Below are positions 46,078 to 63,906 of a DNA stretch of 64,000 bases, piece after piece (within the stretch, counting starts at the first letter, position 1; the number at the start of each line of letters is the position of its first letter). A program made the translations under genes and the position numbers. The notes beneath the pieces are model-generated. The model saw only the letters and a program-made list of their open reading frames with translations, did not search any database and had not been told where the DNA came from. The stretch comes from Clostridia bacterium (GTDB taxonomy: Bacteria; Bacillota; Peptococcia; DRI-13; UBA5745), in the NCBI GenBank assembly GCA_018436095.1, contig JAHDMJ010000024.1, forward strand, positions 1-64,000, written 5' to 3'.

Positions 46078-46093
46078 TGGCATACTTCTTGCT
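46078..46093 (+). promoter_or_regulatory. Sigma-54 (-24/-12) promoter of the nicotinate operon
   Basis: TGGCATACTTCTTGCT matches consensus TGGCAY-N5-TTGCW exactly, with GG (46079-46080) and GC (46091-46092) separated by 10 bp. It lies 75 bp before the enamidase start. Confidence 0.9.
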
Positions 46094-46167: not shown

Positions 46168-47328
46168 ATGAGCAAGCTAATCATTACCAACATCGGTACT
46201 ATTGTCAGCGGGGATTGTGCCAACCCAATCCTGAAAGGTGATACTATAGTCGTGGAGGACAACCTTATCGTTGCCATCGGCGGCAAAGAGCTGGCCGAAA
46301 AGGCTGAAGGCGCCAAAGTCATTGACGCCGGCGGCGCTACCGTAACACCCGGACTTTTTGATTCTCACGTTCACACCACTATCGGAGATTTTGCCCAGCG
46401 CCAGTCCACCCTTAATTATATTGACAGTGCTTTACACGGCGGCGTTACCACTATGATTTCCGCCGGCGAGGCTCATATGCCCGGCCGTCCTAAAGATCCG
46501 GCCGGTACGAAAGCCCTGGCTATTTTAGCCCACAAATCTTATGAGAATGCCAGACCTTCCGGCGTTAAAGTTCACGGCGGCGGCCTGATCCTGGAAAAAG
46601 GCCTTGTGGAAAAAGACTTTGCCGAGCTGAAAGAGCAAGGCGTATGGATTGTAGGCGAAATCGGCCTGGGTTCCGTCAAATCTCCTGCCGAAGCAGCTCC
46701 GATGGTAGAGTGGGCCCATAAATACGGCTTCAAAGTGCAAATGCATACCGGCGGCACTTCCATTCCCGGCAGCTCCACCGTCACTGCCGCTGATGTTATC
46801 GCCACGAAGCCCGATGTGGTTTCTCATATTAATGGCGGACCTACCGCTATCTCCCTGCAGGAAGTGGACCGTATCATGGACGAGACGGAATTTGCTCTGG
46901 AAATCGTTCAGTGCGGCAATCCCAAGGTAGCCGATTACGTAGCCCGCCGGGCCCAGGAAAAAGGCATGCTTGGCCGGATCATCTTCGGCAACGACGCTCC
47001 TTCCGGCACCGGCCTGATTCCCTTGGGCATCCTGCGCAATATGTGCCAGATCGCTTCCGTATCCGGCATCGCTCCCGAGCAGACCCTTTGCATGGCCACC
47101 GGCAATACCGCCAAGGTCTACGGTCTGAACACCGGCGTTATTGCTGCCGGTAAAGAGGCCGACCTGGTAATTATGGATGCTCCTCTGGGCTCCGTAGCCG
47201 AGGACGCTCTGGGCGCCATTGCCGCCGGCGACATCCCCGGCGTCAGCATCGTCATTATCGACGGCGTAGTGAAGGTCAACAAGAGCCGCAATACGCCTCC
47301 CGCCACTCGCCAGGCCAAAGTTATGTAA
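46168..47328 (+). CDS. ena: Enamidase (1,4,5,6-tetrahydro-6-oxonicotinate hydrolase)
   Basis: A 386-residue amidohydrolase-superfamily enzyme. The metal-binding HxH is H67/H69 in LFDSHVHTTIG; further ligands lie in VQMHTGGTS (about 191) and FGNDAPSGTG (about 275). In E. barkeri the bifunctional Fe/Zn enamidase opens the reduced ring to (S)-2-formylglutarate and ammonia. Here it is the first gene behind the sigma-54 promoter and precedes 6-hydroxynicotinate reductase, which fixes the assignment beyond family level. ATG follows AGAGGAG. Confidence 0.9.
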   Translation: MSKLIITNIGTIVSGDCANPILKGDTIVVEDNLIVAIGGKELAEKAEGAKVIDAGGATVTPGLFDSHVHTTIGDFAQRQSTLNYIDSALHGGVTTMISAGEAHMPGRPKDPAGTKALAILAHKSYENARPSGVKVHGGGLILEKGLVEKDFAELKEQGVWIVGEIGLGSVKSPAEAAPMVEWAHKYGFKVQMHTGGTSIPGSSTVTAADVIATKPDVVSHINGGPTAISLQEVDRIMDETEFALEIVQCGNPKVADYVARRAQEKGMLGRIIFGNDAPSGTGLIPLGILRNMCQIASVSGIAPEQTLCMATGNTAKVYGLNTGVIAAGKEADLVIMDAPLGSVAEDALGAIAAGDIPGVSIVIIDGVVKVNKSRNTPPATRQAKVM

Positions 47329-47375: not shown

Positions 47376-48872
47376 GTGATCATCGTTAACGAAAATTGTA
47401 AAAGCTGCGGCATTTGCGTAAAAAACTGTCCCGTAGAAGCTTTGTATTTAGAAGGAAAAAAGCTGCACATTAAAGACTCCTGCGTACAATGCGGCATCTG
47501 TGTCCGGGTTTGTCCTTTTAAAGCTTTGGAGAAAACCGACGAATTGCCGGCTGCCGCTGTAATATGCAGCAACTGCCCCATTCAGTGCCGGGTTCCTGAA
47601 GGCGCCACCGGTGCTTGCAAACGCTACGCCAACAGAAACGGCAAGCTGGAAAGAACTTTGGAGCATGTTTTGGAGCCCAAGGATTTAGTTTTCCCCGAGG
47701 AAAATATCCGCCGGCCCATCATTACCGCCGTCGGCGGCGGCGCCAACTACCCCTGCTCCCTGCCTGCTCCCCATATCGTCAAGGAAAGCAGAGAGGGCGT
47801 GGATGTGGTTACCGTTGTCACAGAAGCACCTTTGAGCTACAGCGGCCTGATTGTGAAGCTGGATACCAACAGCTATATCGGCGAAGAGGGCGCCAAGGTC
47901 TACCGTGACGGCAAAGTTGTGGGTATGGTCAATACGGAAGAATACGGCTCCAAAATGATCGCCATCGGCGGCGCTAACCGGCTCACCGGTGACGGCGGCT
48001 TCATGACGGCCCGCACCATCGTGGAACTGGCCAACGGCCAGGAAGTGGAAGTTTCCGTAGACAAGAAATACAAAGTCCGCATGCAGGCCGGCAAAGCCCC
48101 CATCATCAACGGCGTTCAGGAAAAGAAAATGCGCCTGGGCTGCGGCAGCGCTACCGTAGGCCTCTTTGCCTATCTCATGAAAGAATGCGTGGACGAATGC
48201 CTGGTTATCGACCATCATGTCATCGGCTTATGCACCGAGCATCTGGCCGGCGCCGCCATCGGCCTTTCCTGGAGCGGCGTGGTGCCCAATGCCACCAAGA
48301 GCTCCCGGGGCCGCTACTTTGGCGAACACGGCGACGGCATCGGCGGCACTACGCTGATGAGCTGCCGGGATGCCATCAAGAGCGTGGATATGTCCATTGC
48401 CAAACCGGGCATGACGATTCTGGTGGTCAATACCACCGGTGAGATTCATGAGCTCTTTGAGCTGCAGGCCGGCGGCGAAGTCAAGGCCATTCCCATGACG
48501 GAAAAAGCCCTGCGGGTGCCGAAAGCCATCAATGAAGCCTGTGAAGAATCCCGCTGTTCCGTGATGTACACCGGCGGTACCGGCGGCAGCGCCCGGGGCG
48601 GCGTCTGCAAGAAGCCTCTGGCTCTTTCCAAAGCCGTCCACGCCGGCAAAGCCGTACTGACCATCGGCGGCGCTCCCACCTTTATTCTTCCCGGCGGCGG
48701 CATCAACTTCATCATCGATACCGAGCAAGTGGTAGCCAACGGCTTTAGCTGGGTCCCCACTCCCGCTACGGTGGCGCCGGTGGAGTATACCATGAAGCTA
48801 TCGGACTACGAGGCTATTGGCGGCCATATGGATCAGGTCAAGGATGTTAAAACCTTAAAAGGTGATGCCTAG
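47376..48872 (+). CDS. hnr: 6-hydroxynicotinate reductase
   Basis: A 498-residue iron-sulfur flavoprotein that reduces 6-hydroxynicotinate to 1,4,5,6-tetrahydro-6-oxonicotinate. Two 4Fe-4S ferredoxin motifs: C8-C11-C14-C18 and C36-C39-C42-C46. Four more cysteines (C64, C67, C71, C81) could hold the 2Fe-2S cluster known for the E. barkeri enzyme. That enzyme carries covalent flavin; here VPTPATVAP near 465 is the only flavinylation-like Thr motif I noticed, and it is weak. Start codon is GTG with AAAGGATGG. The large Gly-rich remainder is related to uncharacterised ferredoxin-fused proteins. Confidence 0.9.
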   Translation: MIIVNENCKSCGICVKNCPVEALYLEGKKLHIKDSCVQCGICVRVCPFKALEKTDELPAAAVICSNCPIQCRVPEGATGACKRYANRNGKLERTLEHVLEPKDLVFPEENIRRPIITAVGGGANYPCSLPAPHIVKESREGVDVVTVVTEAPLSYSGLIVKLDTNSYIGEEGAKVYRDGKVVGMVNTEEYGSKMIAIGGANRLTGDGGFMTARTIVELANGQEVEVSVDKKYKVRMQAGKAPIINGVQEKKMRLGCGSATVGLFAYLMKECVDECLVIDHHVIGLCTEHLAGAAIGLSWSGVVPNATKSSRGRYFGEHGDGIGGTTLMSCRDAIKSVDMSIAKPGMTILVVNTTGEIHELFELQAGGEVKAIPMTEKALRVPKAINEACEESRCSVMYTGGTGGSARGGVCKKPLALSKAVHAGKAVLTIGGAPTFILPGGGINFIIDTEQVVANGFSWVPTPATVAPVEYTMKLSDYEAIGGHMDQVKDVKTLKGDA

Positions 48873-48973: not shown

Positions 48974-49891
48974 ATGCAGTATCAAATTAGAGATCATGAC
49001 CGGCTTGCCTCCGCCCCGGACTCCGTTCCTTACCGGGTGCTGGAGGACGGCAAGGTTTACGTAGACTACGGGCCCGTTTCCATGGTGATCATGGCCGATA
49101 AAGACGGCCGTCCCTTGACGGACCTTTGCTGCCAGGCTTTTGCCGTAATAGAGGAAGCCCTGAAAGAGCTCACCTCTTCTCTGGATTTATTGCGCCTGTA
49201 TCCCGGCCAAATCCCCTTGCGGATTCTGGCGGGACTGCCGGCCCAAATGCTGGAGGCTGTTTTAGCAGTGGAAGAGCCCACTTTGACTCCTATGGCTACC
49301 GTTGCCGGGGCTCTGGCGGATTTAGTAGCCGATTGGCTATTTGCCCGGGGAGCCCAGCGGGTTTCCGTCAACAACGGCGGCGACGTAGCGCTGCGGCTGG
49401 CCCCCGGACAAAAGCTGAATCTGGGCATTATGTCAAGCCTTGCTGCCGGCCAGGTGGACCTGGTGGTTCCCATCAAAGCTGAGGACGGAATCGGCGGCGT
49501 AGCCACCAGCGGTTTGGGAGGCAGGAGCTTCACCCGGGGCATCGCCCAGGGCGTCAGCGTTTTTTCTTCCCGCTGCATCTTAGCCGACGCTTTGGCTACT
49601 CACCTGGCCAATACCACCTACGTGCCTTCTCCCCGGGTTCTGACGACGAAAGCCGGTGTTTTCGACCCCCAAAGCGATATCCGGGATCTGGATGTAGTGG
49701 CGGCAGTAGACCGGCTGACCCGCCGGGAAGTACGGCAGGCTTTGGCCCAAGTCGAGCAGGAAGCCCTCCGGCAAAAGCATAAAGGCAACTTACTGGCTAT
49801 GACCGCCAGAGTTCAGGATCAGATGATCCAGATCAATATGCCCGGCTCCCAAGTTGAACAAAACCCCGGCCAAGCCGGTCAAGCCGATTAA
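48974..49891 (+). CDS. UPF0280 family protein (ApbE-like fold)
   Basis: A 305-residue protein of the UPF0280 group, distantly related to ApbE flavin transferases. It contains TPMATVAGALADLVADWL and RVSVNNGGDVALRL, then GGVATSGLGGRSFTRGIAQ and CILADALATHLANTT, the last matching the ApbE region that binds the flavin nucleotide. It directly follows hnr, whose E. barkeri counterpart has covalently bound flavin, so a flavinylation role is attractive (inference). The C-terminal 50 residues are polar and variable. GGAGG precedes the ATG. Confidence 0.75.
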   Translation: MQYQIRDHDRLASAPDSVPYRVLEDGKVYVDYGPVSMVIMADKDGRPLTDLCCQAFAVIEEALKELTSSLDLLRLYPGQIPLRILAGLPAQMLEAVLAVEEPTLTPMATVAGALADLVADWLFARGAQRVSVNNGGDVALRLAPGQKLNLGIMSSLAAGQVDLVVPIKAEDGIGGVATSGLGGRSFTRGIAQGVSVFSSRCILADALATHLANTTYVPSPRVLTTKAGVFDPQSDIRDLDVVAAVDRLTRREVRQALAQVEQEALRQKHKGNLLAMTARVQDQMIQINMPGSQVEQNPGQAGQAD

Positions 49892-49973
49892 GTCGATTAA
49901 GTCTCAGCCTTTTTCCGCTTTACAAACAATATACATCACAAATCAAATACATTATATAAAGGAGAGATTGCTT

Positions 49974-50555
49974 ATGTTAGAACCCAAAATCAGAAAAGTC
50001 GTTACTTCTGTGGAAGAAATCCGTTACGAAGGTTTCTCCGCCCTGGAAAAACCAATTCGCCGGGTTTCCGTAGCCGCCGTTATTAAGAATCCTTATGCCG
50101 GCAAATATCAGGAAGATTTGTCCGAGCTCAGTGAAGTCGGCGAATGGCTGGGCGATTACCTTTCCAAGGAAGCTGCCAAGATTCTGGGCGAAGGCAATAT
50201 CCATAGCTACGGCAAAGGCGCCATCGCCGGTCTGGACGGCGAATTAGAGCATTGCGCCGCCATTCTTCATCCCAAGCTGGGCAAACCTATGCGCGACGCC
50301 ATCGGCGGCGGCAAAGCCATCATTCCCTCCGCCAAAAAAGCCGGCGCTGCCGGTACGGCTTTGGATGTGCCTCTGCACTACAAAGACGCCGCTTTTGTCC
50401 GCACCCACTATGATGCCATGGAGGTCAGAATTGCCGACGCTCCCAAATGCGACGAAATCGTAGTGGCCCTGGCCTTCACCGACGGCGGCCGTCCCCATCC
50501 GAGAATCGGCGGCCTGCAGATCAGTGAGATCAAAGGCGAAGACGGCTTGCGCTAA
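49974..50555 (+). CDS. PF06684 (amino acid synthesis / DUF1185) family protein
   Basis: A 193-residue cytoplasmic protein with the family marks RVSVAAVIKNPYAGKYQEDL near residue 25 and GDYL, SYGKGAIAGLDGELEH, KPMRDAIGGGKAIIPS and FTDGGRPHPRIGG. Members occur next to amidohydrolases and ring-cleavage enzymes, but no reaction is established. I start at ATG 49974 behind GGAGAG; an upstream in-frame start lies in the preceding gene. Within the nicotinate cluster it may handle an unstable enamine or aldehyde intermediate (speculation). Confidence 0.75.
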   Translation: MLEPKIRKVVTSVEEIRYEGFSALEKPIRRVSVAAVIKNPYAGKYQEDLSELSEVGEWLGDYLSKEAAKILGEGNIHSYGKGAIAGLDGELEHCAAILHPKLGKPMRDAIGGGKAIIPSAKKAGAAGTALDVPLHYKDAAFVRTHYDAMEVRIADAPKCDEIVVALAFTDGGRPHPRIGGLQISEIKGEDGLR

Positions 50556-50667
50556 GCCGCCGCTTTGCAAACTCCCTGTACTGCTGTTGTGATTGAGGTT
50601 TATGGGGGACGCCTGGTCGCCCCCCTTCCTTAGTCTACTTATACCATAAGAAAGAGGATTGATACTC

Positions 50668-51558
50668 ATGAAAATCGGTTTTATCGGCGCAGGCGCCATG
50701 GGCAAACCTATGGCAAAGAATCTTTTGGCCGCTGGCTATGAGGTCTATGTTTACGATTTAGTGGAAGCAAACGTCAAAGAGCTGGAAGGCTTCGGCGCCA
50801 AAGCCTGTGCCGATAGCGGGGAGTTGTCCGGCAAGGCTGATCTGATCATTACTTCCTTGCCCAACGCCAAAATCGTTGAAACGGTCATGACCGGCAAAGG
50901 CGGCGTTATGGAAAACTGCAAGCCCGGCGCCATCATCATGGACATGAGCAGCGTAGCTCCCGCCACCACTAAGGCTATGGCCAAGGCCGGCGAGAAATAT
51001 GGCGTTAAGTACATGGACGCTCCCGTCAGCGGCGGCGTATCCGGCGCAACAGCCGGTACCCTTACCATTATGGTGGGCTGTGACGAAGAAACTTATGAAA
51101 AGGTTTCTCCCATTCTCAAGGTACTAGGCAAAAACATTTACCACGTTGGGGAAGCCGGCGCCGGCGACGCCATTAAAATCGTCAACAACTTGCTCTTGGG
51201 CACCAGCATGGCCGCCCTGGCCGAGGCTCTCGTTTTGGGCGCTAAACTGGGTCTTAAAGCGGAAACCATGAAAGAAGTAATCAGCGTCAGCTCCGGCCGT
51301 TCCTATGCCCTGGAGGCTAAGTTTGACAAATTCATCATGGCCGATGCTTTTGATACGGGCTTTGCCGTGGATCTGCAATACAAAGATCTGGGCCTGGCTC
51401 TTGACGCCGCCAAAGACGTGGCCGCCCCTCTGCCTTTGACCGCCGCTGCGGCTCAGGTTTTTGAGATGGCCCGGGCCAAAGGCCTCAACCGCCAGGATAT
51501 TTCCGCCGTCATCAAGGTTTGGGAAGACTTAGCCGGCGTCAAGGTCAAAGATTGTTAA
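50668..51558 (+). CDS. hgd: 2-(hydroxymethyl)glutarate dehydrogenase
   Basis: A 296-residue beta-hydroxyacid dehydrogenase. The dinucleotide site is GFIGAGAMGKPMAKNLL (residues 4-20), the substrate loop MDAPVSGGVSGATAGTL (about 118-134), and the catalytic lysine lies in AIKIVNNLLLG. In nicotinate fermentation this 3-hydroxyisobutyrate-type enzyme reduces (S)-2-formylglutarate with NADH to (S)-2-(hydroxymethyl)glutarate. Start chosen at ATG 50668 after AGAGG rather than the TTG at 50659. Confidence 0.92.
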   Translation: MKIGFIGAGAMGKPMAKNLLAAGYEVYVYDLVEANVKELEGFGAKACADSGELSGKADLIITSLPNAKIVETVMTGKGGVMENCKPGAIIMDMSSVAPATTKAMAKAGEKYGVKYMDAPVSGGVSGATAGTLTIMVGCDEETYEKVSPILKVLGKNIYHVGEAGAGDAIKIVNNLLLGTSMAALAEALVLGAKLGLKAETMKEVISVSSGRSYALEAKFDKFIMADAFDTGFAVDLQYKDLGLALDAAKDVAAPLPLTAAAAQVFEMARAKGLNRQDISAVIKVWEDLAGVKVKDC

Positions 51559-51639: not shown

Positions 51640-52521
51640 ATGAAAGCATTTAATTTTTACACGCCAAAGACGCTGACAGAGGCTTTGGATCTGCTGAACC
51701 AATATAAAGGCAGAGCCACGGTTATCGCCGGCGGCACAGACGTGGTCATCGAGCTGACGGAACGTCAGCGGGACACCGACTGTGTGATCAACATCAACAA
51801 GCTCAATGAACTCCGTTATTGTAAAGTGGAAGACGGCAAAGTGAAAATCGGCGCCTTAACCACCTTTACCGAACTGGAAAACGATCCTTATATCAGAGAG
51901 AATGTCAAAGGCCTTCATTCCTGCGCCGTTCATGTAGGCTCGCCCCAGATTCGCAATTTGGGCACCATCGGCGGCAATGTAGTCAATTGCTCCGTGGCCG
52001 GCGACAGCCCCACCACCTTCATGGCCCTGGATGCCACCGTCGTGCTGCAAAGCAAGGCCGGCAAACGGGAAATGAAGCTGACGGACTTCTACGCCAACTG
52101 CAAAAAAACCCAGATTGCCGACGACGAGTTAATGACGGAAATCTATTTCGATGCGCCTGCCAAAGGAATTGCCACGGCCACTATGAAGCTGGGCAAGAGA
52201 AAAGCCTTGGTCATCGTCGTTGTAGGTTTGGCCGTCCTCGTTGAAAAAGACGATGCCGGCAATATCAGCCGGGCTCAGGTAGTCATAGGCGGCGTATCGC
52301 CTAAGCCTGCCCGTTTGCCCAAGGTTGAAGAGTATTTGGTAGGCAAACCTGTCAGCAAAGCCACCTTTGCACCCTGTGCCGATATGCTGTCGGATGCCGT
52401 CAGGGAGATGATCCCTACCAGAGCTTCCATGCCTTACAAGAAAGAAGGGGTCAAAGGCGTTTCCGACAAGACCTTTGGCCGGATTCTGGCGGATTTTGGT
52501 CTGCAGGAAGGTGGTCGTTAA
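51640..52521 (+). CDS. ndhF: Nicotinate dehydrogenase FAD subunit
   Basis: A 293-residue member of the FAD-binding (CoxM-type) subunits of molybdenum hydroxylases. FAD motifs are ATVIAGGTDVVIE (about 27-39) and RNLGTIGGNVVNCSVAGDSP (about 106-125). It transfers electrons from the FeS subunit to NADP in the E. barkeri enzyme. ndhS starts one base after its stop, and the molybdopterin gene follows, giving the usual M-S-L set. ATG behind a strong GAGGGGGG. Confidence 0.92.
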   Translation: MKAFNFYTPKTLTEALDLLNQYKGRATVIAGGTDVVIELTERQRDTDCVININKLNELRYCKVEDGKVKIGALTTFTELENDPYIRENVKGLHSCAVHVGSPQIRNLGTIGGNVVNCSVAGDSPTTFMALDATVVLQSKAGKREMKLTDFYANCKKTQIADDELMTEIYFDAPAKGIATATMKLGKRKALVIVVVGLAVLVEKDDAGNISRAQVVIGGVSPKPARLPKVEEYLVGKPVSKATFAPCADMLSDAVREMIPTRASMPYKKEGVKGVSDKTFGRILADFGLQEGGR

Positions 52522-52522
52522 T

Positions 52523-52987
52523 ATGGATAAAATAAAAATCAGCTTTATATTAAATGATAAGCCCGTAACGGTAGAAACCAACCCCAACAAACGGGTAGTG
52601 GATCTTTTGCGGGAAGATTGCGAATGCACCAGCGTTAAAGAAGGCTGCAGCGAAGGGGAATGCGGCGCTTGCACCGTTTTGGTAAACGGCACTCCCGTTA
52701 CAAGCTGCCTGATGCTGGCCGGCCAGATTGAAGGGGACAGCATCCTGACTCTCGAGGGATTGATGAAAGACGGCGAGCTGGACAAACTGCAGACTTCCTT
52801 CGTGGAAGCCGGCGCTGTTCAATGCGGTTACTGTACGCCGGGCATGGTTTTATCGGCTAAAGCCCTGCTGATGAAGAATCCTCATCCCACCCATGAAGAA
52901 ATCCGGCGGGCGCTGTCCGGCAACCTCTGCCGCTGCACCGGCTACACCAAAATCTTTAAGGCCGTTGATATGGCCGCTGGAAATTAA
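52523..52987 (+). CDS. ndhS: Nicotinate dehydrogenase iron-sulfur subunit
   Basis: A 154-residue protein with two 2Fe-2S clusters. The N-terminal plant-type ferredoxin cluster is C42, C47, C50 and C62 ([17 protein letters not shown]). The C-terminal helical cluster uses QCGYCTPGM and GNLCRCTGY. Start ATG 52523 has AGGAAGG upstream; the longer frame from 52475 lies inside ndhF. It carries electrons from the molybdenum centre to FAD. Confidence 0.94.
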
Positions 52988-53007
52988 GGAAGGAAGGAGC
53001 GATCAAT

Positions 53008-55251
53008 ATGGCATTACGTGATCTGGCAATCCTGGGCAAAGCCAATGTAAAAAAGGACGCCTACAATAAAATTACCGGCAAGGCTTTATTTGCCGCCGAT
53101 TTGAAGTTCGACCATATGCTGTACGGCGGTGTTTTCCGCAGCACAGTACCCCATGCCACCATCAAACGCTTCGATGCTTCCAAAGCTCTGGCCCTGCCTG
53201 GTGTGGCTTGTGTACTGACCTCCAAGGATATCCCCGGCGGCAACCGCATCGGTATCATTATGAAGGATGAGCCGGTACTGGTGGACGACAAGATCCGCCG
53301 GGTAGGCGACGCCATCGCTATCGTAGCCGCCGAAACACCGGAACTGGTGGAAGAAGCCTTGGAGCTAATGGAAGTGGAATACGACCTTCTGGAGCCTATC
53401 CTCTCCTATGAGGACGCTATGAAAGAGGGCGCCATCAAAGTCCACGGCGACAGCAACCTCCATGCCCGCAAGCATCTGGAATCCGGCGATGTGGATGCAG
53501 CTTTTGCCCAATGTGACGTTATCATCGAAGGCACTTACACCACCAACATGCTGTCCCATATGTTTATCGAGCCCGATGCCGGTGTTGCCCGTATCGAAGA
53601 CGGCATTCTCACCGTCTATGCTTCCACCCAAAACGCTCATTTTGACCGGGGCGAGGTGGCCAGAACCATGGGCCTGCCCAACAACAAGGTTCGGGTAATG
53701 CAGGTAACCACCGGCGGCGGCTTCGGCGGCAAGCTGGACATTTCCGTCCAGTGCCACCTGGCTCTCTTGACCAACGCCACCGGCCGCCCCGTGAAGATGG
53801 TCCGCAGCCGCAAAGAATCCACCGACGTTTCCGCCAAACGCCACCCCATGGTGATGAAAGCCAAAACCGGCGCCACCAAAGACGGCAAGGTTTTAGCAGT
53901 GGAAGTCTTCATGACCGGCGATACCGGCGCTTACGCCTCATACGGCCCGGCGGTTATCACCAGAGCCGTGGTCCACGCCATGGGGCCTTACGATGTGCCC
54001 AATGTGCGGATAGATGCAGATTTTGTTTACACCAACAACCCCATGTGCGGCGCTTTCCGCGGCTTTGGCGTACCTCAGGTTTCCGTCTGTCATGAAGGTC
54101 AGATGAACGCCCTGGCTAAGGCTCTTAATATGGATCCCATCGACCTGCGGATTATCAATGCCCAAAGACCCGGCACGGTGCTGGCCACCGGCCAGGTGCT
54201 GGATGAGGCTGTGGGCTTTATCGATACCCTGCTGGAAGCCAAGAAAAAGGCGGCAGAGGTGTTGGATCCCTGCAAAGAAAACCAAGGCATCGGCGTAGGC
54301 TGCATGTGGTACGGCGTCGGCAACACCGGCCTGCCCAATCCTGCCGGCGCTTTCGTCGAGGTATTGGCTGATGCCTCCGTCAACCTGATGGTAGGCTGCG
54401 CCGATATCGGCCAGGGCTCCTCCACGGTTATGGCCGCCATTGCCGCCGAAGAACTGGGTCTTTCTTATGACGACATTCATGTTGTTGCCGCCGACACTAT
54501 GGTAACACCGGAAGGCGGCGCCTCTTCAGCCAGCCGCCAGACCTTTATCTCCGGCAACGCCACCAGAAATGCCTGCAAGCAGGCTAAGGATACCTTAGCC
54601 GAGACTGCTTCCAATTTCCTGAATGTGCCCAAAGAAGACCTGATCTTCCGTGACCGGATGATCTACAGCGCCAAGGATCCCGCCATCAAAATGACTTATC
54701 CCGAGCTGATGGCCGAGATGAAAAAATGGGGCAAGCTGGCGGTGGGCGCCGGCGCTTACAACCCCAAGACCACCTATCTCGATGCCAAAACCATGGCCGG
54801 TATTCCCTACGAGATCTATTCTTACGGCACCACCATCGCTCAAGTGTCAGTGGACACCAGCACCGGCGAAGTGGACGTGCAGAAACTGATTTCTGCCCAT
54901 GACGTAGGCCAGGCCGTAGACCGGGAAATGGTGGAAGGCCAAATCGAAGGCGGCATGGTTATGGCTCAAGGCTTTGCCGTTTTTGAAAAAATTGAGTTTG
55001 AAAAGGGTAAAATCAAAAACCCGATTTTCTCAAAATATCTGATTCCTACCGCTATGGATTCACCTGAAATTTATCCTATTATCGTTGAGTGTCCTGGAGA
55101 GGCCGGTCCCTTCGGCGCCAAAGGCGTCGGTGAGCCTGCTTTGATACCGGGTATTCCCGCCATTACCAATGCTGTGGAAAACGCTTTATGTCAGAGATTT
55201 TTCGAGCTTCCCCTAATGCCTACGGAAGTGATGAAAAAGATCCGCAGCTAA
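53008..55251 (+). CDS. Nicotinate dehydrogenase molybdopterin subunit (NdhL-NdhM in one chain)
   Basis: A 747-residue xanthine dehydrogenase-family large subunit. It shows [15 protein letters not shown] (about residue 235) and [11 protein letters not shown] (about 350), plus [16 protein letters not shown] (about 505) and the catalytic glutamate in [10 protein letters not shown] (about 710). In E. barkeri the same region is split into ndhL and ndhM, and the enzyme has labile selenium. Here one open frame spans both with no stop. Hydroxylates nicotinate at C6. Confidence 0.9.
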
Positions 55252-55572: not shown

Positions 55573-56658
55573 ATGTCAGAACCTAAATCCTTTTCCGCTT
55601 TTATGAAAAAGCAAGGTATTGAAATTACCTGGAACAGAATCGGTATCGGCGCCCTCGGCGCTATGGCTCAAGGTCTTTTTGCATCTTTATTAATTGGTAC
55701 CATTATCAATACCCTCGGTACTCAATTAGGCATTCCTTTCCTTAACCAAATCGGCGGCTTTGCCACGGCCGGCACCGGTGCGGCCATGGCCGTATCCATC
55801 GGCTTCGCTTTAAAAGCCCCGCCCTTTGTCCTTTACTCCTTGGTAGCCGTAGGTCAGGCGGCCAACTCCTTAGGCGGCGCCGGCGGTCCTTTAGCCGTAT
55901 TCTTTATCGCTCTTATTGCCGTTTTTGCCGGCAAACTGGTTTCCAAAACTACGCCTATCGACTTGATTGCCACACCCTTTGTGACCATTGTCGTGGGTGT
56001 TACCGCCGCCGTCATTTTGGCGCCTCCCATCGGCAAAGTCGCTTCTTCCATCGGTTATGCCATTATGTGGGCCACCGACATGCAGCCCTTCCTGATGGGT
56101 ATCCTGGTCTCCGCCATCATGGGTATTACTCTTACCTTACCCATCAGCTCTGCTGCCATCTGCGCAGCTTTAGGCCTGGTGGGTCTGGCCGGCGGCGCTG
56201 CCGTAGCCGGCTGCTGCGCCCACATGGTAGGTTTTGGTGTGGCCTCCTACAGGGAAAACAAGATTGGCGGCCTGATGGCTCAGGGCCTCGGTACTTCCAT
56301 GCTGCAAGTACCCAATCTGATGAGCAAGCCTGTTCTCTGGCTGCCGGCGGTGGTTGCCTCCATCGTCAACGGCCCTGTTGCTACAATGATTTTCAAATTG
56401 AAGCAAAACGGTCCTCCCATCGCCTCCGGCATGGGCACCTCCGGTATGGTAGGCCCCATCGGCGTCATCACCGGCTGGTTTACGCCTTCTGAAGCTGCCG
56501 CCAATCTCGGCGAAGTGGCCACCGGCGCTACCGCTTTTGACTGGCTGGGCCTTCTGCTCATCGCCATCGTCATTCCCGCCGCAGTGGCCTGGCTAACCTC
56601 AGAGCTTATGCGCAAACAAGGCATGATCAAGTCTGGCGATTACAAAATCGAATGCTAA
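55573..56658 (+). CDS. PTS EIIC-like (PF13303 type) permease, candidate nicotinate transporter
   Basis: A 361-residue protein with about nine or ten hydrophobic segments, resembling the PTS_EIIC_2 family: QLGIPFLNQIGGFATAGTGAAMAV near 50, TLPISSAAICAALGL near 175 and a late GTSGMVGPIGVITGW. It has no EIIA, EIIB or HPr domain and none is nearby, so it probably works without phosphorylation. Lying inside the nicotinate operon, which has no other permease in this window, it is a candidate for nicotinate uptake (inference). Preceded by a structured leader and followed by a terminator-like hairpin. Confidence 0.75.
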   Translation: MSEPKSFSAFMKKQGIEITWNRIGIGALGAMAQGLFASLLIGTIINTLGTQLGIPFLNQIGGFATAGTGAAMAVSIGFALKAPPFVLYSLVAVGQAANSLGGAGGPLAVFFIALIAVFAGKLVSKTTPIDLIATPFVTIVVGVTAAVILAPPIGKVASSIGYAIMWATDMQPFLMGILVSAIMGITLTLPISSAAICAALGLVGLAGGAAVAGCCAHMVGFGVASYRENKIGGLMAQGLGTSMLQVPNLMSKPVLWLPAVVASIVNGPVATMIFKLKQNGPPIASGMGTSGMVGPIGVITGWFTPSEAAANLGEVATGATAFDWLGLLLIAIVIPAAVAWLTSELMRKQGMIKSGDYKIEC

Positions 56659-56708
56659 ACATGCCAAAGTAAGGTTTTACTACACTGTTTTTGTTAACGT
56701 ATGCCAGA

Positions 56709-56738
56709 GAAGCCCGGTTCCTGCCGGAGCCGGGCTTC
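56709..56738 (+). terminator. Hairpin after the EIIC-like gene
   Basis: GAAGCCCGG (56709-56717) pairs with CCGGGCTTC (56730-56738), followed by TTCTTTACC. The T-run is weak, so partial termination is likely and transcription may continue into dmdA. Confidence 0.6.
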
Positions 56739-56799
56739 TTCTTTACCGGAACAATTTACGAAAAACTATTAAATTTGATTTGCAGGAAGGTGTTTAACA

Positions 56800-57996
56800 A
56801 TGAATTTGATCGAAAGCCATTTGGCCAAAGCCGCCGGTTTAGACAAGGTAAGTGCCGGAATGGACGTCAGTTGTAAGGTTGGCTATGTGGCCGCCCATGA
56901 TGTGACTGCCCCTATCGCCATAAAGCAATTTCGGGAAATTGGCGTTGACAAAGTATTCGATCCGAAGCGGGTTCTTTTGATTGTCGATCACATCTATCCT
57001 GCAGCCAGTGAGAAAGCCCGGGACAGCGTTTGGATTATGGACGATTTTGCCCGGGAATTTGGCATTCCCATCTATAAAAAAGGTGAAGGCGTCATCCACC
57101 AGATCATGTATGAAAAACACCGGGCCGAACCGGGAGAACTGGTGGTTATCGCCGATTCCCACACCTGCACCTGCGGCGGCTACGGCGCCATCGGCATTGG
57201 CGTAGGCTCCACGGAAGCTGCCGCCGCCATGGCTACAGGCCGTTTGGATCTTGAGGTGCCGGCAGTGGTGCAGGTTTATCTTACCGGAAAATTGAAAGAA
57301 AACGTATTCGGCAAAGACTTCATTCTTTATTTGGGTGAAATCTTTGGCACCGACTACTTAACGGATAAAGGCCTGCTGATCACCGGCCCCGGCATTGAAT
57401 GCTTTTCTGTGGCGGAGCGCATGACGGTCTGCAACATGGGCACGGAGCTGGGCAGCATGATCACCTTATTTGGTACGGAAGAAAAGGAAATGGAAGTGGA
57501 AGAGATCCGGGAAATCGATCTGTCCACCCTTAACCCCAAAATTGCTAAGCCCTTCTCCCCTGCCAACGTCTGTGATGTGGCGGAGGTGGCCGGTCTGCCC
57601 ATTACCCAGGTTGTGGTAGGAAGCTGCACCAACGGCCGCATCAATGATATGGAGCAGGTGGCTTTAGCCCTCAAGGGCCGTCAGGTTCATCCGGGCGTTA
57701 ATATGCTGGTAGTGCCCTCCTCCAAAAACGTCTTAAATACTATGGAGGAAAAGGGTTGGTGCAAGATCATCCGGGAGGCCAACGCCACAGTGCTCAATCC
57801 CGGCTGCGGCCCCTGCTTCGGCGCCCACGAAGGCCTGATCAGCAACCGGGACGTGGTGGTATCCACCACCAACCGCAATTTCCCCGGCCGTATGGGAGCC
57901 AACAAAGGCCAGATCTACCTGGCTTCGCCGGCTACGGCTGCCGCCAGTGCCATTGCCGGCAAGATCACGGTACCCGGTACAGAGGCCAGCCTGTAG
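56800..57996 (+). CDS. dmdA: 2,3-dimethylmalate dehydratase large subunit (aconitase family)
   Basis: A 398-residue large subunit of the isopropylmalate/homoaconitate dehydratase family. Cluster ligands are the Cys in VVGSCTNGRINDMEQ (about 274) and two in LNPGCGPCFGAHEG (about 335). The N-terminal HTCTCGGYGAIGIGVG block is typical. It hydrates dimethylmaleate to (2R,3S)-2,3-dimethylmalate in nicotinate fermentation. The small-subunit gene follows at 35 bp. Family alone would allow LeuC, but the context with mgm, mii and dml decides. Confidence 0.9.
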   Translation: MNLIESHLAKAAGLDKVSAGMDVSCKVGYVAAHDVTAPIAIKQFREIGVDKVFDPKRVLLIVDHIYPAASEKARDSVWIMDDFAREFGIPIYKKGEGVIHQIMYEKHRAEPGELVVIADSHTCTCGGYGAIGIGVGSTEAAAAMATGRLDLEVPAVVQVYLTGKLKENVFGKDFILYLGEIFGTDYLTDKGLLITGPGIECFSVAERMTVCNMGTELGSMITLFGTEEKEMEVEEIREIDLSTLNPKIAKPFSPANVCDVAEVAGLPITQVVVGSCTNGRINDMEQVALALKGRQVHPGVNMLVVPSSKNVLNTMEEKGWCKIIREANATVLNPGCGPCFGAHEGLISNRDVVVSTTNRNFPGRMGANKGQIYLASPATAAASAIAGKITVPGTEASL

Positions 57997-58031
57997 AATT
58001 GTGAATGAAATCAATTGGGAGGGATGCGCAA

Positions 58032-58523
58032 ATGGAAGTATTAAAAGGACGGGTTTTTGTCCTGGGTGACGATGTGGATACGGATCAGATTCTGCCTGGC
58101 TACGCCATGGCCGAGCCCTTTGAGCAATTAGGCAAGTATGCTATGGCAGGAGCTCCCGGCCTGGATTTTCTCAATCGGGTGCAGCCGGGGGACATTATCG
58201 TAGCGGGACGTAATTTTGGCTGCGGCTCTTCCCGGGAACAGGCCCCTATCGCCTTGAAGATGGCCGGCCTAGGCCTGGTGGTAGCCGCCGGCTTTGCCCG
58301 GATCTTTCGCCGCAACGCCATCAACATCGGCTTGCCCGTTTATGTAGCTGATATTGCCGGTGTTTTGAAAGACGGAGACATTATTGAGGTCGATATGGTC
58401 AAGGGCGTGATTCGTTATCCCGAAGGCCAGGTCGCAGCCAAACCTCTGTCGGACAACGTGTTGAAAACCCTGGACTACGGCGGTTTAATTCCCCGGGTAC
58501 GGGCAGAATTAGGAATTTCATAA
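58032..58523 (+). CDS. dmdB: 2,3-dimethylmalate dehydratase small subunit
   Basis: A 163-residue LeuD-like swivel-domain protein with [15 protein letters not shown] and [15 protein letters not shown], the substrate-binding loops of the family, and [13 protein letters not shown]. The start at 58032 is 8 bp after GGGAGGG; the earlier ATG at 58005 is not used here. Pairs with dmdA to form the active hydratase. Confidence 0.92.
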
Positions 58524-58537
58524 AAAGGAGACGTATC

Positions 58538-60382
58538 ATGCAAGAAAAGACAAAACGTATTATCAAAGAAGATATTGAAGCCGTCCGGGCTTATGCCGAC
58601 ACTTTCGGCGTGGAGATGCCGGATCTGGACGAAAAAGGCGAAGTTGTGGGCCTGCCGGCGCCCTATCCCCGGGAGGTAGCGGGGGTAGTCCGCAGCGGTT
58701 ACCGTATTTACGAGCTGGCCCAGCTGGCGGAAAAAAGAGGCTGGCCTGTGCAGAATCCCATTTTGGGCCGCAATACCGGTGAAGAAACATACAAAGAATC
58801 CAAGAACATGTATGAGTACGCCGAAAAATTCGACGAGACCCTCTTCCACTTCGTCCATTCCGAAGCCACCCGCCATATTGATCCTTTGAAAGGCCGGGAA
58901 CTCATCGAGCAGTCCCGGGGCAAAGGCGGCATCACTCCCAAAGGAGAGCGGGACTACGTGCAAATGGGTGGCGGCGCCAAGCATCCGGTGCGGATTAACG
59001 CTACCGGGGACACCCCCCACCTTTCCATTATCAATGCTTTAATTGCCGGCTTTGACGGCACCGACATCGGTCCGGTGATCCACGTCCATTTCGGCGGCCG
59101 GGGCATCCATGATTACAAAACGAAGGTAGTTAACGGCTACAAAGCCCTTCAGGTCTGCGCCGACAACAATATCTTCGTACAGCTTGACTCCCACAAGCAT
59201 TTGAATAACATCGGCGGCACCGACGGTATGGCTCTGGCTATGTGCTTGATGGCCGAGGGCCTGGCCATTCACGCCGGCCTGCCGGCTGAGTTGTCCGCTA
59301 TCCAGATGAATATCGCCGGCATCAACATCTATGCGGATCTGGCCGTTATGCAGGCATTTAAAGAAAATATGTGGAGCAAATCCCTGATCGTGGTACCGGA
59401 AACCTTCCAGAATCCGCCTCCCAACCTGATCGCCGAGTCTGCTCATTTTGCCCGTATGGCCATCAATGCCAAGCTGGGCGGCGCCCACTTCTACCGGCCT
59501 AAGGCTGCCGAATCCGTGGGTATTCCCACCGGAGATTCCATGGGCCAGTCCATCTGGGCCACCCGCAACGTCTTTGACGGTACTTATACCCAGCCCATCG
59601 AATCTCCCATTATCGACGCCAGGAAAAAAGAAATCCTCAGCGAGGCCATGGCTGTGCTGGAAGGCGCTTTGGGCGTAAAGAACCTGACTCCCGACCAGAT
59701 TACCCCGGAATTCTGGATGCAGTGGAGCGATGAGGAGCTTATCGACAAGGCTGTGGAAGCCGGCAAAAGCGGTATCTTCGACTGCCAGCGGGCCGGCGGC
59801 TGGGATCTGAAGCGTCACGTCAAGGTTCACCGGGATCATGACGGCATCACCCGCTACATCAAAGGCTTCACTCCCCTGGGCATCGATCCGGAGCGGGTAG
59901 CGGTTTCCATCGATAATATCACCGTGCCGGCGGAAGTCAAAGCCAACAGGCCGGAAACCATCGTTTTGGGCACCGTAGGCGCCGACGCCCACGTCCAGGG
60001 CATCAACCAGGTACGGGAAGCTTACCAGAAGGCAGGCTTCAATATCATTTACCTGCGGGGCATGAACCTGCCGGAAACCGTAGCGGAAGTAGCCGCCGAA
60101 GCCAATGCCGACATCATCGGCATCAACAACCTGCTGGGCATGGCTCAAACCCTCTTTCCCCGGGTAGGCCAGCGTCTGGAAGAGCTGGGCCGGCGGGATA
60201 AGACCCTGATCATCGCCGGCGGCCGTATCGCCGAAAAAGAAGAAGAACACGCCATGTACGAAGAAAAAATTGCCAAAGAGGGCATCGGTTTCTTAGGCGT
60301 AGACGCCTTCTATGGCCCCGGCACCGATACGGATAAGATCATTGCTGAAACAGAAGCCCTATTAAAGGCAAGAAATAAATAA
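58538..60382 (+). CDS. mgm: 2-methyleneglutarate mutase (adenosylcobalamin-dependent)
   Basis: A 614-residue carbon-skeleton mutase converting 2-methyleneglutarate to (R)-3-methylitaconate; as I recall, the E. barkeri enzyme is about the same length. The C-terminal B12-binding domain has the base-off motif [10 protein letters not shown] (DxHxxG near 482), then GMNLPETV and [15 protein letters not shown]. The N-terminal TIM-barrel part includes [15 protein letters not shown] and [20 protein letters not shown] behind AAAGGAG. It needs cobalamin supply and a reactivase; the latter gene follows two genes later. Confidence 0.95.
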
Positions 60383-60395
60383 GGAGTTGATACAC

Positions 60396-61547
60396 ATGCA
60401 GTCTGATGTTTTTCGTGTTCCAACCGTCATCATGCGGGGCGGCACCAGTAAAGCCGTGTTCCTGAAAGAAAATGACCTGCCCTCCGACAAAGCTATCCGG
60501 GACAAAATTATCCTGGCCATCTTCGGCAGCCCCGACGTCCGTCAAATCGACGGTTTAGCCGGCGCCGACCCCCTGACCAGCAAGCTGGCCATCATCGGCC
60601 CCCCCAGCCGTCCCGACGCCGATGTGGACTACACCTTCGGCCAGGTCAGCATCAACGACACCGTCATCGACTACAGCGGCAACTGCGGCAATATTTCCTC
60701 CGCCGTAGGCCCCTTTGCTATTGATGAATCCATTGTCCGGGCTGTGGAGCCTGTAACCACTGTCCGCATTCACAACACCAATACCGGCAAGATCCTGGTT
60801 GCGGAAGTTCAGGTCAAAGACGGCAAAGCCGTAGTTAAAGGCGATTGCAAAATCGACGGCGTTCCCGGCACCGCCGCTCCTATCCTGATGAATTTTGCCG
60901 CCACCGCCGGTTCTTCCACCGGCAAGCTGCTGCCCACCGGCAACGTGGTAGACGTGGTGGAAACCAGCAAAGGCCCCATCGAAGTGTCCATGGTGGACCT
61001 GTCTAACCCCTGCCTCTTTGTGCGGGCGAAAGACGTAGGCATGAAGGGTACGGAAAATCCCACAGAAATCAACGGCAACAAAGAGCTGCTGGCTTATTTG
61101 GAAGAGATCCGGGCCAAGTGCACCGTCATTATCGGCAAGGCCAAAACCGAGGAAGAAGCCACTAAGCTCTCCCCCGCTTTCCCCATGATCGCCTTTGTTA
61201 CCGAAGCCGCCGATTATGTGGATTTCACCACCGGCAACACCATCAAGAAAAGCGATGTGGACTTCGTTTCCCGCATGATGTTTATGCAGGTGCTGCATAA
61301 GACTTATCCCGGCACCGGCACGGCTTGCACCGGCGCTGCCGCCAAGATCCCCGGCACCATCGTCAACCAGGTCATTCCTCATATCGACAGCATCGAGACG
61401 GTGCGCATCGGCCATCCTGCCGGCGTCATCCCCGTAGGGGCTGCTGTCAAAGACGGCGAAGTGGTGAAAGCCAGCATCGAACGGACGGCCCGCCGCCTGA
61501 TGGAAGGCTATGCTTTTGTGGAAACCGATAAGATTTACGGAGCTTAA
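60396..61547 (+). CDS. mii: 3-methylitaconate delta-isomerase
   Basis: A 383-residue PrpF-family isomerase (diaminopimelate epimerase-like fold, two similar halves). Marks are PTVIMRGGTSKAVFL at the N-terminus, YSGNCGNISSAVGPFAI near 92 with its Cys, and the second-half GTGTACTGAAAKIPGT. Converts 3-methylitaconate to 2,3-dimethylmaleate without cofactor. Start ATG 60396 follows AAGGAG at 9 bp, preferred over TTG 60387. Confidence 0.93.
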   Translation: MQSDVFRVPTVIMRGGTSKAVFLKENDLPSDKAIRDKIILAIFGSPDVRQIDGLAGADPLTSKLAIIGPPSRPDADVDYTFGQVSINDTVIDYSGNCGNISSAVGPFAIDESIVRAVEPVTTVRIHNTNTGKILVAEVQVKDGKAVVKGDCKIDGVPGTAAPILMNFAATAGSSTGKLLPTGNVVDVVETSKGPIEVSMVDLSNPCLFVRAKDVGMKGTENPTEINGNKELLAYLEEIRAKCTVIIGKAKTEEEATKLSPAFPMIAFVTEAADYVDFTTGNTIKKSDVDFVSRMMFMQVLHKTYPGTGTACTGAAAKIPGTIVNQVIPHIDSIETVRIGHPAGVIPVGAAVKDGEVVKASIERTARRLMEGYAFVETDKIYGA

Positions 61548-61551
61548 GGCC

Positions 61552-63027
61552 GTGAGTACGCTTAATTCCGCCCACAGCCTTGAACCGGCAAAGGCAAAGG
61601 AAGCCAATCTTCTCGTTTATGATGTGGGCAGCACCTACACCAAGGCTACGGCTTTTCGCCTGGAAGAGCCGGCAAACCTGATTTTTCTGGGCCGGGGCCA
61701 GTCTCCCACCACCTTGGAAGATGTGCTGCTGGGGGTGGAAAATGCCCGGCAGGCCATAGCCGGCCAAGGCGTCAGCTTCAGTAACGATTTACGCCATTAC
61801 GCCACCTGCAGTGCCGCCGGCGGCCTTAGAATGGTAGCCCTGGGCTATATGCCCCGGGTTACCGCCAAAGCTGCCAAGGAAGTATCCATGACCGCCGGGG
61901 CCCGGGTAATGGAGGTTATCTCCTACGATGAGCCCGTGGAATACCGGGAGGAAGTGCTGCAGGAAATCCGGCCGGATATTATTTTGCTGGCCGGCGGCAC
62001 CGACGGCGGCGACCGGGAATCCGTTCTGGAAAATGCCGAGATCATCGTCCGGGTCAAAAGCAAAGCCATGGTGGTGGTGGCCTGCAATAAAGACGCCCAG
62101 GCTGAAGTAGCCGCCCGCTTTGATGAAGCAGGTATTCCTTACGTCAGGGTGCCCAACATCATGCCCACCATCCATGAGCTGAACATCAAGCCGGCCCGGG
62201 AAGCCATTCACGCTCAGTTTATTAAGCAGATTACGAAGGCCAAAGGCTTAGACCGGCTGCAAGCCATACTGGCGGACAAAACGGTAATGCCTACGCCGGG
62301 AGCCGTGCTCCTAGCCAGTGAATTGCTGGCCAAGGGCACCTATGAGCAAGAAGGCATCGGCGGCCTGATTCTTGTGGACATTGGCGGCGCTACTACGGAT
62401 ATCCATTCCGCTCTGCCGGAACTGGAAAACCTGAAGCTGGAAGAACGGGGCCTGGTGATCAACAACGAAAAGCAGTTTTCCTACCGGACGGTGGAAGGCA
62501 ATCTGGGCCTTCGGGTCAGCGCCACCGGCATTCCGGAGGCGGTAGGTCCTCTGGCTATAATCCGGGATATGGGCCCTCAGGAGCCGCCGGTAACGCCGGA
62601 AGAAGTTCTCGACTATACCGGCAAAATGGAAAAAGAGCCGGCCACCATACCGGACAGCCCCCGGGAATGGGCTATGGACAAGGCCTTGGCCATGGCCGCC
62701 ATCGCCGTAGCCCTCCGCCGCCATGCCGGCCATCTTTCCAAAGAGGCCGATCCTGTTTTAGGCATGGTAGCCGGTACCCCCGTGGGCCGGGATCTTCGGG
62801 CAGTCAGACACGTTTTAGCTGTGGGCGGAATTTTCTATTACACAAAAGCCGGGGAAAGGCAGGAAATCCTGGCCAAAGCTTTTGGTGATCCGGGGATTTC
62901 CCTATTGCCCGCCAATCCCGATTTTTATTTTGATCACGACTATCTTTTATACGCCATGGGCGTTTTATCCCGCCATTTCCCCGACCCGGTGCTTTCCTAT
63001 TTGAAAAACCATTTAAGAGAGGATTGA
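61552..63027 (+). CDS. MutL/GlmL-like protein, probable reactivase of the B12 mutase
   Basis: A 491-residue ASKHA-fold protein of the MutL (GlmL) family found with glutamate mutase. ATP-binding elements are LLVYDVGSTYTKATAF near residue 20 and LILVDIGGATTDIHS near 275, with LLAGGTDGGDRESVLENA between. I place the start at GTG 61552, GGAG upstream, 4 bp past the mii stop; the longer frame from 61510 overlaps mii. No glutamate mutase subunits are present, so it likely serves 2-methyleneglutarate mutase (inference). Confidence 0.85.
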   Translation: MSTLNSAHSLEPAKAKEANLLVYDVGSTYTKATAFRLEEPANLIFLGRGQSPTTLEDVLLGVENARQAIAGQGVSFSNDLRHYATCSAAGGLRMVALGYMPRVTAKAAKEVSMTAGARVMEVISYDEPVEYREEVLQEIRPDIILLAGGTDGGDRESVLENAEIIVRVKSKAMVVVACNKDAQAEVAARFDEAGIPYVRVPNIMPTIHELNIKPAREAIHAQFIKQITKAKGLDRLQAILADKTVMPTPGAVLLASELLAKGTYEQEGIGGLILVDIGGATTDIHSALPELENLKLEERGLVINNEKQFSYRTVEGNLGLRVSATGIPEAVGPLAIIRDMGPQEPPVTPEEVLDYTGKMEKEPATIPDSPREWAMDKALAMAAIAVALRRHAGHLSKEADPVLGMVAGTPVGRDLRAVRHVLAVGGIFYYTKAGERQEILAKAFGDPGISLLPANPDFYFDHDYLLYAMGVLSRHFPDPVLSYLKNHLRED

Positions 63028-63036
63028 TTCTGGAAC

Positions 63037-63906
63037 ATGAACAGCAGAAAACAATTAAAGCAATTATTCCAATCCGGCAAGCTTATTGTCGCCCCAGGCG
63101 CCCATGACGCGCTGACTGCCAAGATTGTCGGCAAAGTAGGCTTTGACGCCGTTTACATGACAGGCTACGGCCAATCCGCCAGCCACTTGGGCGAGCCCGA
63201 CGCAGGTCTGATGACTATGTCGGAAATGGTTATGCGGGCCAACACTTTTGTGGAGGCTGCCGGCGTACCCGTTATCGCCGACGCCGACACCGGTTTTGGC
63301 AATGCTATCAATGTGATCCGCACCATTCGGGAATACGAAAAGGCCGGCGTAGCCGTCATCCAGTTGGAAGACCAGGTTATGCCCAAAAAGTGCGGCCACA
63401 TGACAGGCCGCCAGGTAATCTCCAAGGATGAGATGGTGGGCAAAATCAAAGCCGCCGTGGACGCCAGAATCGATCCTGATTTCATGATCATGGCCCGTAC
63501 CGACGCCCGGACCGTCCATGGCATTGAAGAAGCCTTAGAGCGGGGCGTTGCTTACCAGGAAGCCGGCGCCGACATTATTTTCATCGAGTCTCCCGAGTCC
63601 GAAGAAGAAATGAAGAAAATCAACGAAGCTATTTCCGTTTACACCCTGGCCAACATGGTGGAAGGGGGCCGTACTCCCCTGGTCCCCAACGACAAACTGG
63701 CAGCTATGGGCTACAATCTGGTCATCTACCCCACCGCCTCCACTTATGTCACCACTAAAGCCATGCTGGATCTGATGGAAGGCTTAAAGAAAGACGGCAC
63801 CACCGCCACCATGATCGACAAAATGATTCCCTTCCCCCAATTCAATGATCTCATCGGTCTGCCCAGAATTCGGGAAATTGAAGCCAAATACGCCAACAGA
63901 GGCTAA
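63037..63906 (+). CDS. dml: 2,3-dimethylmalate lyase
   Basis: A 289-residue member of the isocitrate lyase/PEP mutase superfamily. Metal and substrate residues lie in VIADADTGFGNAINV (about 85) and the catalytic loop VMPKKCGHMTGR (about 113-124), with APGAHDALTAKIV at the N-terminus. Cleaves (2R,3S)-2,3-dimethylmalate to propionate and pyruvate, the last step of nicotinate fermentation. Methylisocitrate lyase is the main alternative, but the gene neighbours settle the call. Confidence 0.92.
   Translation: MNSRKQLKQLFQSGKLIVAPGAHDALTAKIVGKVGFDAVYMTGYGQSASHLGEPDAGLMTMSEMVMRANTFVEAAGVPVIADADTGFGNAINVIRTIREYEKAGVAVIQLEDQVMPKKCGHMTGRQVISKDEMVGKIKAAVDARIDPDFMIMARTDARTVHGIEEALERGVAYQEAGADIIFIESPESEEEMKKINEAISVYTLANMVEGGRTPLVPNDKLAAMGYNLVIYPTASTYVTTKAMLDLMEGLKKDGTTATMIDKMIPFPQFNDLIGLPRIREIEAKYANRG

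Follow-up and report, generated by a model that had tools for sequence, protein, structure and literature searches.

A PF13303 membrane protein with a predicted EIIC fold in a nicotinate-fermentation cluster: a candidate nicotinate transporter

The window (the whole 64,000-nucleotide stretch analysed here) carries a full set of genes for anaerobic nicotinate fermentation, all on the plus strand, between positions 44223 and 63906. The set flanks a gene for a membrane protein, at 55573–56658, which resembles the EIIC component of sugar phosphotransferase systems (PTS). The cluster begins with a sigma-54-dependent regulator of the PrdR/PrpR type (Reg, 44223–45794; Pfam Sigma54_activat, AAA lid and HTH_8), which is syntenic in relatives. 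It is followed by homologues of enamidase (Ena, an amidohydrolase, 46168–47328) and of 6-hydroxynicotinate reductase (Hnr, full length, 47376–48872), by genes for an ApbE-like protein, a PF06684 protein and a 2-(hydroxymethyl)glutarate dehydrogenase-like protein (Hgd; together 48974–51558), and by the FAD, 2Fe-2S and fused Mo subunits of nicotinate dehydrogenase (NdhF, NdhS and NdhLM, 51640–55251, recognised by Pfam). Downstream of the EIIC gene lie the two subunits of 2,3-dimethylmalate dehydratase (DmdA and DmdB, aconitase family, 56800–58523), 2-methyleneglutarate mutase with its B12-binding domain (Mgm, 58538–60382) and, at 60387–63906, methylitaconate isomerase (Mii, PrpF), a MutL-like reactivator and a dimethylmalate lyase-like protein (Dml). 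A candidate sigma-54 promoter, TGGCATACTTCTTGCT, matches the pattern with one mismatch at 46078–46093, 75 bp before Ena. The pattern has three matches in the window for 2.9 expected, which is the chance level, so TGGCATACTTCTTGCT is backed by its position only.

The cluster was identified through its homology to that of Eubacterium barkeri VPI 5359 (L097), an organism known for nicotinate fermentation. The flanking genes are 47–77% identical to their counterparts there (77% for Ena and Mgm, 67% for Hnr, 47–67% for the Ndh subunits). The E. barkeri cluster contains the same genes, including an EIIC gene whose product is 59% identical to that of the window, but the order differs: in E. barkeri the EIIC gene lies between ndhM and ena. 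The Mo subunit of nicotinate dehydrogenase (53008–55251) is a single ORF of 747 amino acids in the window, in two other genomes (G023 and G016) and in several gut isolates; E. barkeri and most others have two separate ORFs instead.

The genome that contains the window (G000) also has a paralogous set on another contig (C17, about 127.7–135.8 kb; L057:2709–10789), which is found in G023 as well (contig C22, L056). It comprises proteins similar to Reg (46%), to the PF06684 protein (53%), to Ena (two copies, 43% and 34%) and to Hnr (39%), together with an NCS1-like protein (26% identical to the NCS1 permease described below). This set may represent a pathway for another heterocycle.

The ORF at 55573–56658 is genuine: it encodes 361 amino acids and has a purine-rich ribosome-binding site upstream. 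The first-pass annotation had placed it in mid-operon. It does lie inside the same-strand cluster, but a gap of 321 bp precedes it and a strong hairpin followed by TTCTTT (56708–56743; minimum free energy −29.4 kcal/mol, centroid −28, z = −5.1) separates it from DmdA. This hairpin is probably a terminator or an attenuator which splits the cluster. Because of the gap and the hairpin, the EIIC gene may close the first transcription unit.

The protein matches the Pfam family PF13303 (PTS_EIIC_2) over the whole domain: residues 27–358 align with positions 3–326 of the 327 of the profile, with E = 1.8e-82 and a score of 277.5 bits (the curated cut-off is 28.9). It is the only PF13303 protein encoded in the 3.7-Mb genome. 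An AlphaFold2 model built from 91 family sequences has a mean pLDDT of 93.1 and a pTM of 0.88. Foldseek by itself gave only a weak first match, to PtsG. In a second structural comparison of the model, the best eight matches are all PTS EIIC proteins, with Z scores from 8.9 to 14.7, and the next, unrelated row scores 6.6. The matches include MalT (14.7), the glucose IIC proteins of V. cholerae (14.3) and E. coli (PtsG, 14.1), ChbC (10.9) and MtlA (8.9). The model thus assigns the protein to the glucose superfamily of PTS EIIC folds, in agreement with its first description as EIIC-like. With MalT, PtsG and ChbC, 290–306 residues can be aligned (Z 10.9–14.7), but the identity is only 11–14%. Neither a profile-profile alignment of the family with canonical PTS_EIIC (PF02378) nor a search of the sequences of solved structures produced a significant match. 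The homology to canonical EIICs therefore rests on structure. The fold and the Pfam family of the protein are already known; a predicted EIIC fold does not imply a role in a sugar PTS.

The name of PF13303 implies sugar phosphotransfer, whereas the window protein has neither partner domains nor partner genes. As the first-pass annotation noted, the EIIC is an orphan: no EIIA, EIIB or HPr gene is present within the nicotinate cluster. An ordinary sugar permease whose EIIA and EIIB are encoded elsewhere would have the same fold, and the genome does have a PTS, on contig C37 (EI, an EIIA-like protein, HPr, a GatC-like EIIC and an EIIB-like protein). However, this Gat-type system is self-contained and possesses its own EIIC, and the neighbours of the niacin-linked relatives described below include no recognisable EIIA or EIIB. 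In canonical EIICs, the glutamate of the GITE motif binds the sugar. A GITE-type motif occurs in none of the 91 members of the PF13303 family, compared to 9 of 20 canonical PF02378 sequences searched with the same pattern, a proportion which shows that the pattern itself is imperfect. All this makes a sugar permease highly improbable.

The EIIC gene recurs in nicotinate clusters of other genomes. The association with nicotinate genes that the first-pass annotation had proposed to look for was found, with Hnr as the marker gene. In the class set, 7 of 46 genomes have an Hnr orthologue (at least 57% identity) and all seven have the EIIC, on the Hnr contig in six cases; in the fragmented genome G019, the EIIC gene immediately follows those for nicotinate dehydrogenase. 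An Hnr profile run against 84,980 species gave 76 loci, 15 of which have the EIIC inside the cluster, including those of E. barkeri, E. aggregans, Anaerotruncus colihominis DSM 17241, Pseudoflavonifractor gallinarum, Dethiosulfatibacter aminovorans and Tepidanaerobacter. Together with the genome of the window, G019 and five loci from a phylum scan (L193, L195, L196, L215 and L221), this makes 22 genomes with an EIIC relative within a nicotinate cluster; wrong-strand ORF calls were put right in three GC-rich loci (L090, L096 and L146). Among 398 sampled Bacillota genomes, 75 have EIIC relatives: 8 of the 15 Hnr-positive genomes and 67 of the 383 others (Fisher p = 0.0023, phylogeny ignored). 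All eight copies of the Hnr-positive genomes are in or beside the nicotinate cluster.

The gene is found in at least seven arrangements: NdhLM-EIIC-DmdA, NdhM-EIIC-Ena, EIIC-Ena-Hnr divergent from a LysR-type gene, NdhM-EIIC at the end of the cluster, NdhM-EIIC-Hnr, EIIC-NdhF and Dml-EIIC. Its commonest neighbour is the Mo subunit of nicotinate dehydrogenase. In a quick IQ-TREE phylogeny of the family, membership in nicotinate clusters requires about nine gains or losses, and the NAD-linked proteins are interleaved with the catabolic ones. Three genomes of the same genus that lack Hnr keep an EIIC 78–80% identical to that of the window in unrelated neighbourhoods, which fits vitamin uptake, without proving it. 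A contig binned as Treponema sp. (JAITRD010000290.1, L085) carries nicotinate cluster genes 59–88% identical to those of the window, as a result of either gene transfer or misbinning.

Outside the catabolic clusters, the EIIC relatives are linked to genes of NAD metabolism. In three genomes (L207, L211 and L214) the EIIC gene is the last of a niaR-nadA-nadB-nadC-EIIC string; NCBIfam confirms nadA, nadB and nadC in L214 and nadC in the other two. In another genome (L208), pncB, which encodes nicotinate phosphoribosyltransferase (E = 2.8e-219), comes next downstream of the EIIC gene, after a gap of 18 bp. The regulator gene niaR precedes the EIIC gene in L189 and is divergent from it in L038 (HTH_11 and 3H domains). 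The intergenic region of L038 contains ATATGTCTTGACA, which is identical to the published core of the B. halodurans NiaR operator (PMC7713382). In L207 and L211, the stretch from niaR to nadA holds TGTAAAGACA, which also occurs in the pneumococcal pnuC operator (PMC5343564). Counts of the loose TGT-N4-ACA pattern were uninformative and the stricter NiaR operator pattern TGTCNNGACA was used in its place: 4 of the 91 EIIC genes have an exact match in the 200 bp upstream of them, compared to 6 of 924 other ORFs (p = 0.008), and the shared L038 site accounts for one of these six. The combination of a NiaR gene and an upstream TGT-N4-ACA is found in L038 and L189, not in the window. No 3H/NiaR gene, no NadA and no PF04095 nicotinate phosphoribosyltransferase were detected in the genome of the window (98.5% complete), so the NiaR evidence comes from relatives.

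The idea that the EIIC tracks the loss of nadA was not clearly supported in the class set (5/25 with EIIC against 7/21 without). In four related genomes (L206, L209, L213 and L217), the EIIC gene lies a few genes downstream of selA- and selB-like genes, and in L206 TGTCTTGACA is found upstream of the selA-like gene.

The first-pass annotation reported no known nicotinate carrier in the window, and this holds. An NCS1-family permease (PF02133), however, ends the same gene string just 1.7 kb past the end of the window (contig C2, 65610–66926; L286:3111–4427). It is also present at the end of the cluster in G023 (94% identity) and G018 (81%), and a relative (57%) is near the cluster in Tepidanaerobacter relatives (L192/L193). 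It is the strongest rival carrier in the lineage of the window: the NCS1 permease would import nicotinate and the EIIC would carry something else, for example an intermediate of the pathway or a product that is exported. On the other hand, the sequences retrieved for the other EIIC-bearing clusters, which have limited flanks, showed no NCS1 gene (among them E. barkeri, L095/L097; the gut isolates; L107/L112, L290 and L291), and its involvement cannot account for EIIC genes next to niaR, pncB and nadABC. We consider this alternative unlikely.

It is less probable still that the EIIC moves a metabolite of the pathway (6-hydroxynicotinate, 2-methyleneglutarate or fermentation acids) rather than nicotinate. 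The location in the cluster cannot by itself choose between a substrate and a product, but the commonest partner of the EIIC is the first enzyme of the pathway, and the only logical substrate that the relatives in NAD-salvage and NiaR contexts share is nicotinate or nicotinamide.

Nicotinate clusters which lack the EIIC contain other transporters: MFS proteins (L155, L117 and twice in L113), sodium:solute symporters of the SSF family (L105, L114 and L093), a TRAP system in Desulfobacterota (L119; L129 has a similar trio) and a BMP-type ABC permease (L088). In 18 of 20 genomes with such a cluster, no EIIC is found anywhere. The pattern suits the non-orthologous replacement of one transport function, with putative substrates for the replacing proteins. 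In E. barkeri and E. aggregans, a similar ORF of 510 amino acids is found upstream of Hnr besides the EIIC; since the two coexist, the symporter in these genomes is not necessarily a replacement. The fact that bona fide transporters occupy the place of the EIIC in other clusters, like its full transport fold, argues against the view that the EIIC is a membrane sensor or regulator instead of a carrier. This view draws on PfoR-type proteins, presumably read as regulators in older work, and on the naming of some family members, and it has very little probability. A link of PfoR-type proteins to serine dehydratase was absent from the recurrent neighbours of the EIIC and was not found in a literature search.

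The reading that we favour, with a probability of roughly three in four, is that the gene encodes an EIIC-fold membrane transporter which imports nicotinate without phosphorylating it. The recurrence in 22 nicotinate clusters and the linkage elsewhere, in several lineages, to niaR, nadABC, pncB and NiaR operators give strong support to the candidate nicotinate transporter of the first-pass annotation. Nicotinate would bind in the mobile domain of the protein, perhaps close to its conserved segments TLPISSAA and GLGTSMLQ, and an elevator movement would carry it across the membrane, as in sugar EIICs. Phosphate transfer is not expected, because EIIA and EIIB are absent and the glutamate motif GITE is missing. 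Either the gradient would drive uptake or an ion would be cotransported, and once in the cell nicotinate would be consumed by nicotinate dehydrogenase and Hnr, which are encoded nearby. The NiaR-controlled relatives would serve NAD salvage, and proteins of this kind would have been taken into catabolic clusters on several occasions.

The first-pass annotation further suggested that such proteins transport carboxylates rather than sugars. This finds support for a part of PF13303, but the survey of neighbourhoods and the tree showed deep and large clades (such as L234–L243) with no NAD or nicotinate neighbour, so that the claim is too broad for the whole family. It seems somewhat more probable than the contrary that a large subset of PF13303 consists of EIIC-fold niacin transporters that carry an aromatic carboxylate and are devoid of phosphotransfer, which serve NAD salvage under NiaR, have repeatedly been recruited into nicotinate fermentation and fill part of the gap in vitamin B3 transporters of anaerobic Bacillota.

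NiaP, NiaX and NiaY are niacin transporters already named in earlier work (PMC6593275, PMC5343564). The EIIC proteins share with them the proposed substrate and the NiaR-linked genomic context. NiaP belongs to the MFS and NiaX is a component of the ECF type, and the window protein differs from both in belonging to the unrelated family PF13303. NiaY, or the protein labelled "predicted nicotinate-regulated transporter BH3254" in SEED, may belong to PF13303, in which case the earlier prediction may already cover the EIIC family. The context of one relative (L226) would agree with this: its gene has a near-NiaR site at −41 and lies between genes resembling Bacillus ytoP and ytpP.

In a survey of gut bacteria, only about 25% of the genomes dependent on niacin from outside had a recognised transporter for it (PMC6593275). 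If the EIIC relatives carry niacin, many of the missing transporters would be explained, a large family that at present bears a sugar PTS label would need a new name, and the EIIC fold could serve as a plain carrier of a pyridine carboxylate. As Anaerotruncus colihominis (L108) and Pseudoflavonifractor gallinarum (L090) carry the cluster with the EIIC gene, this gene could also be used to trace the degradation of vitamin B3 by gut bacteria.
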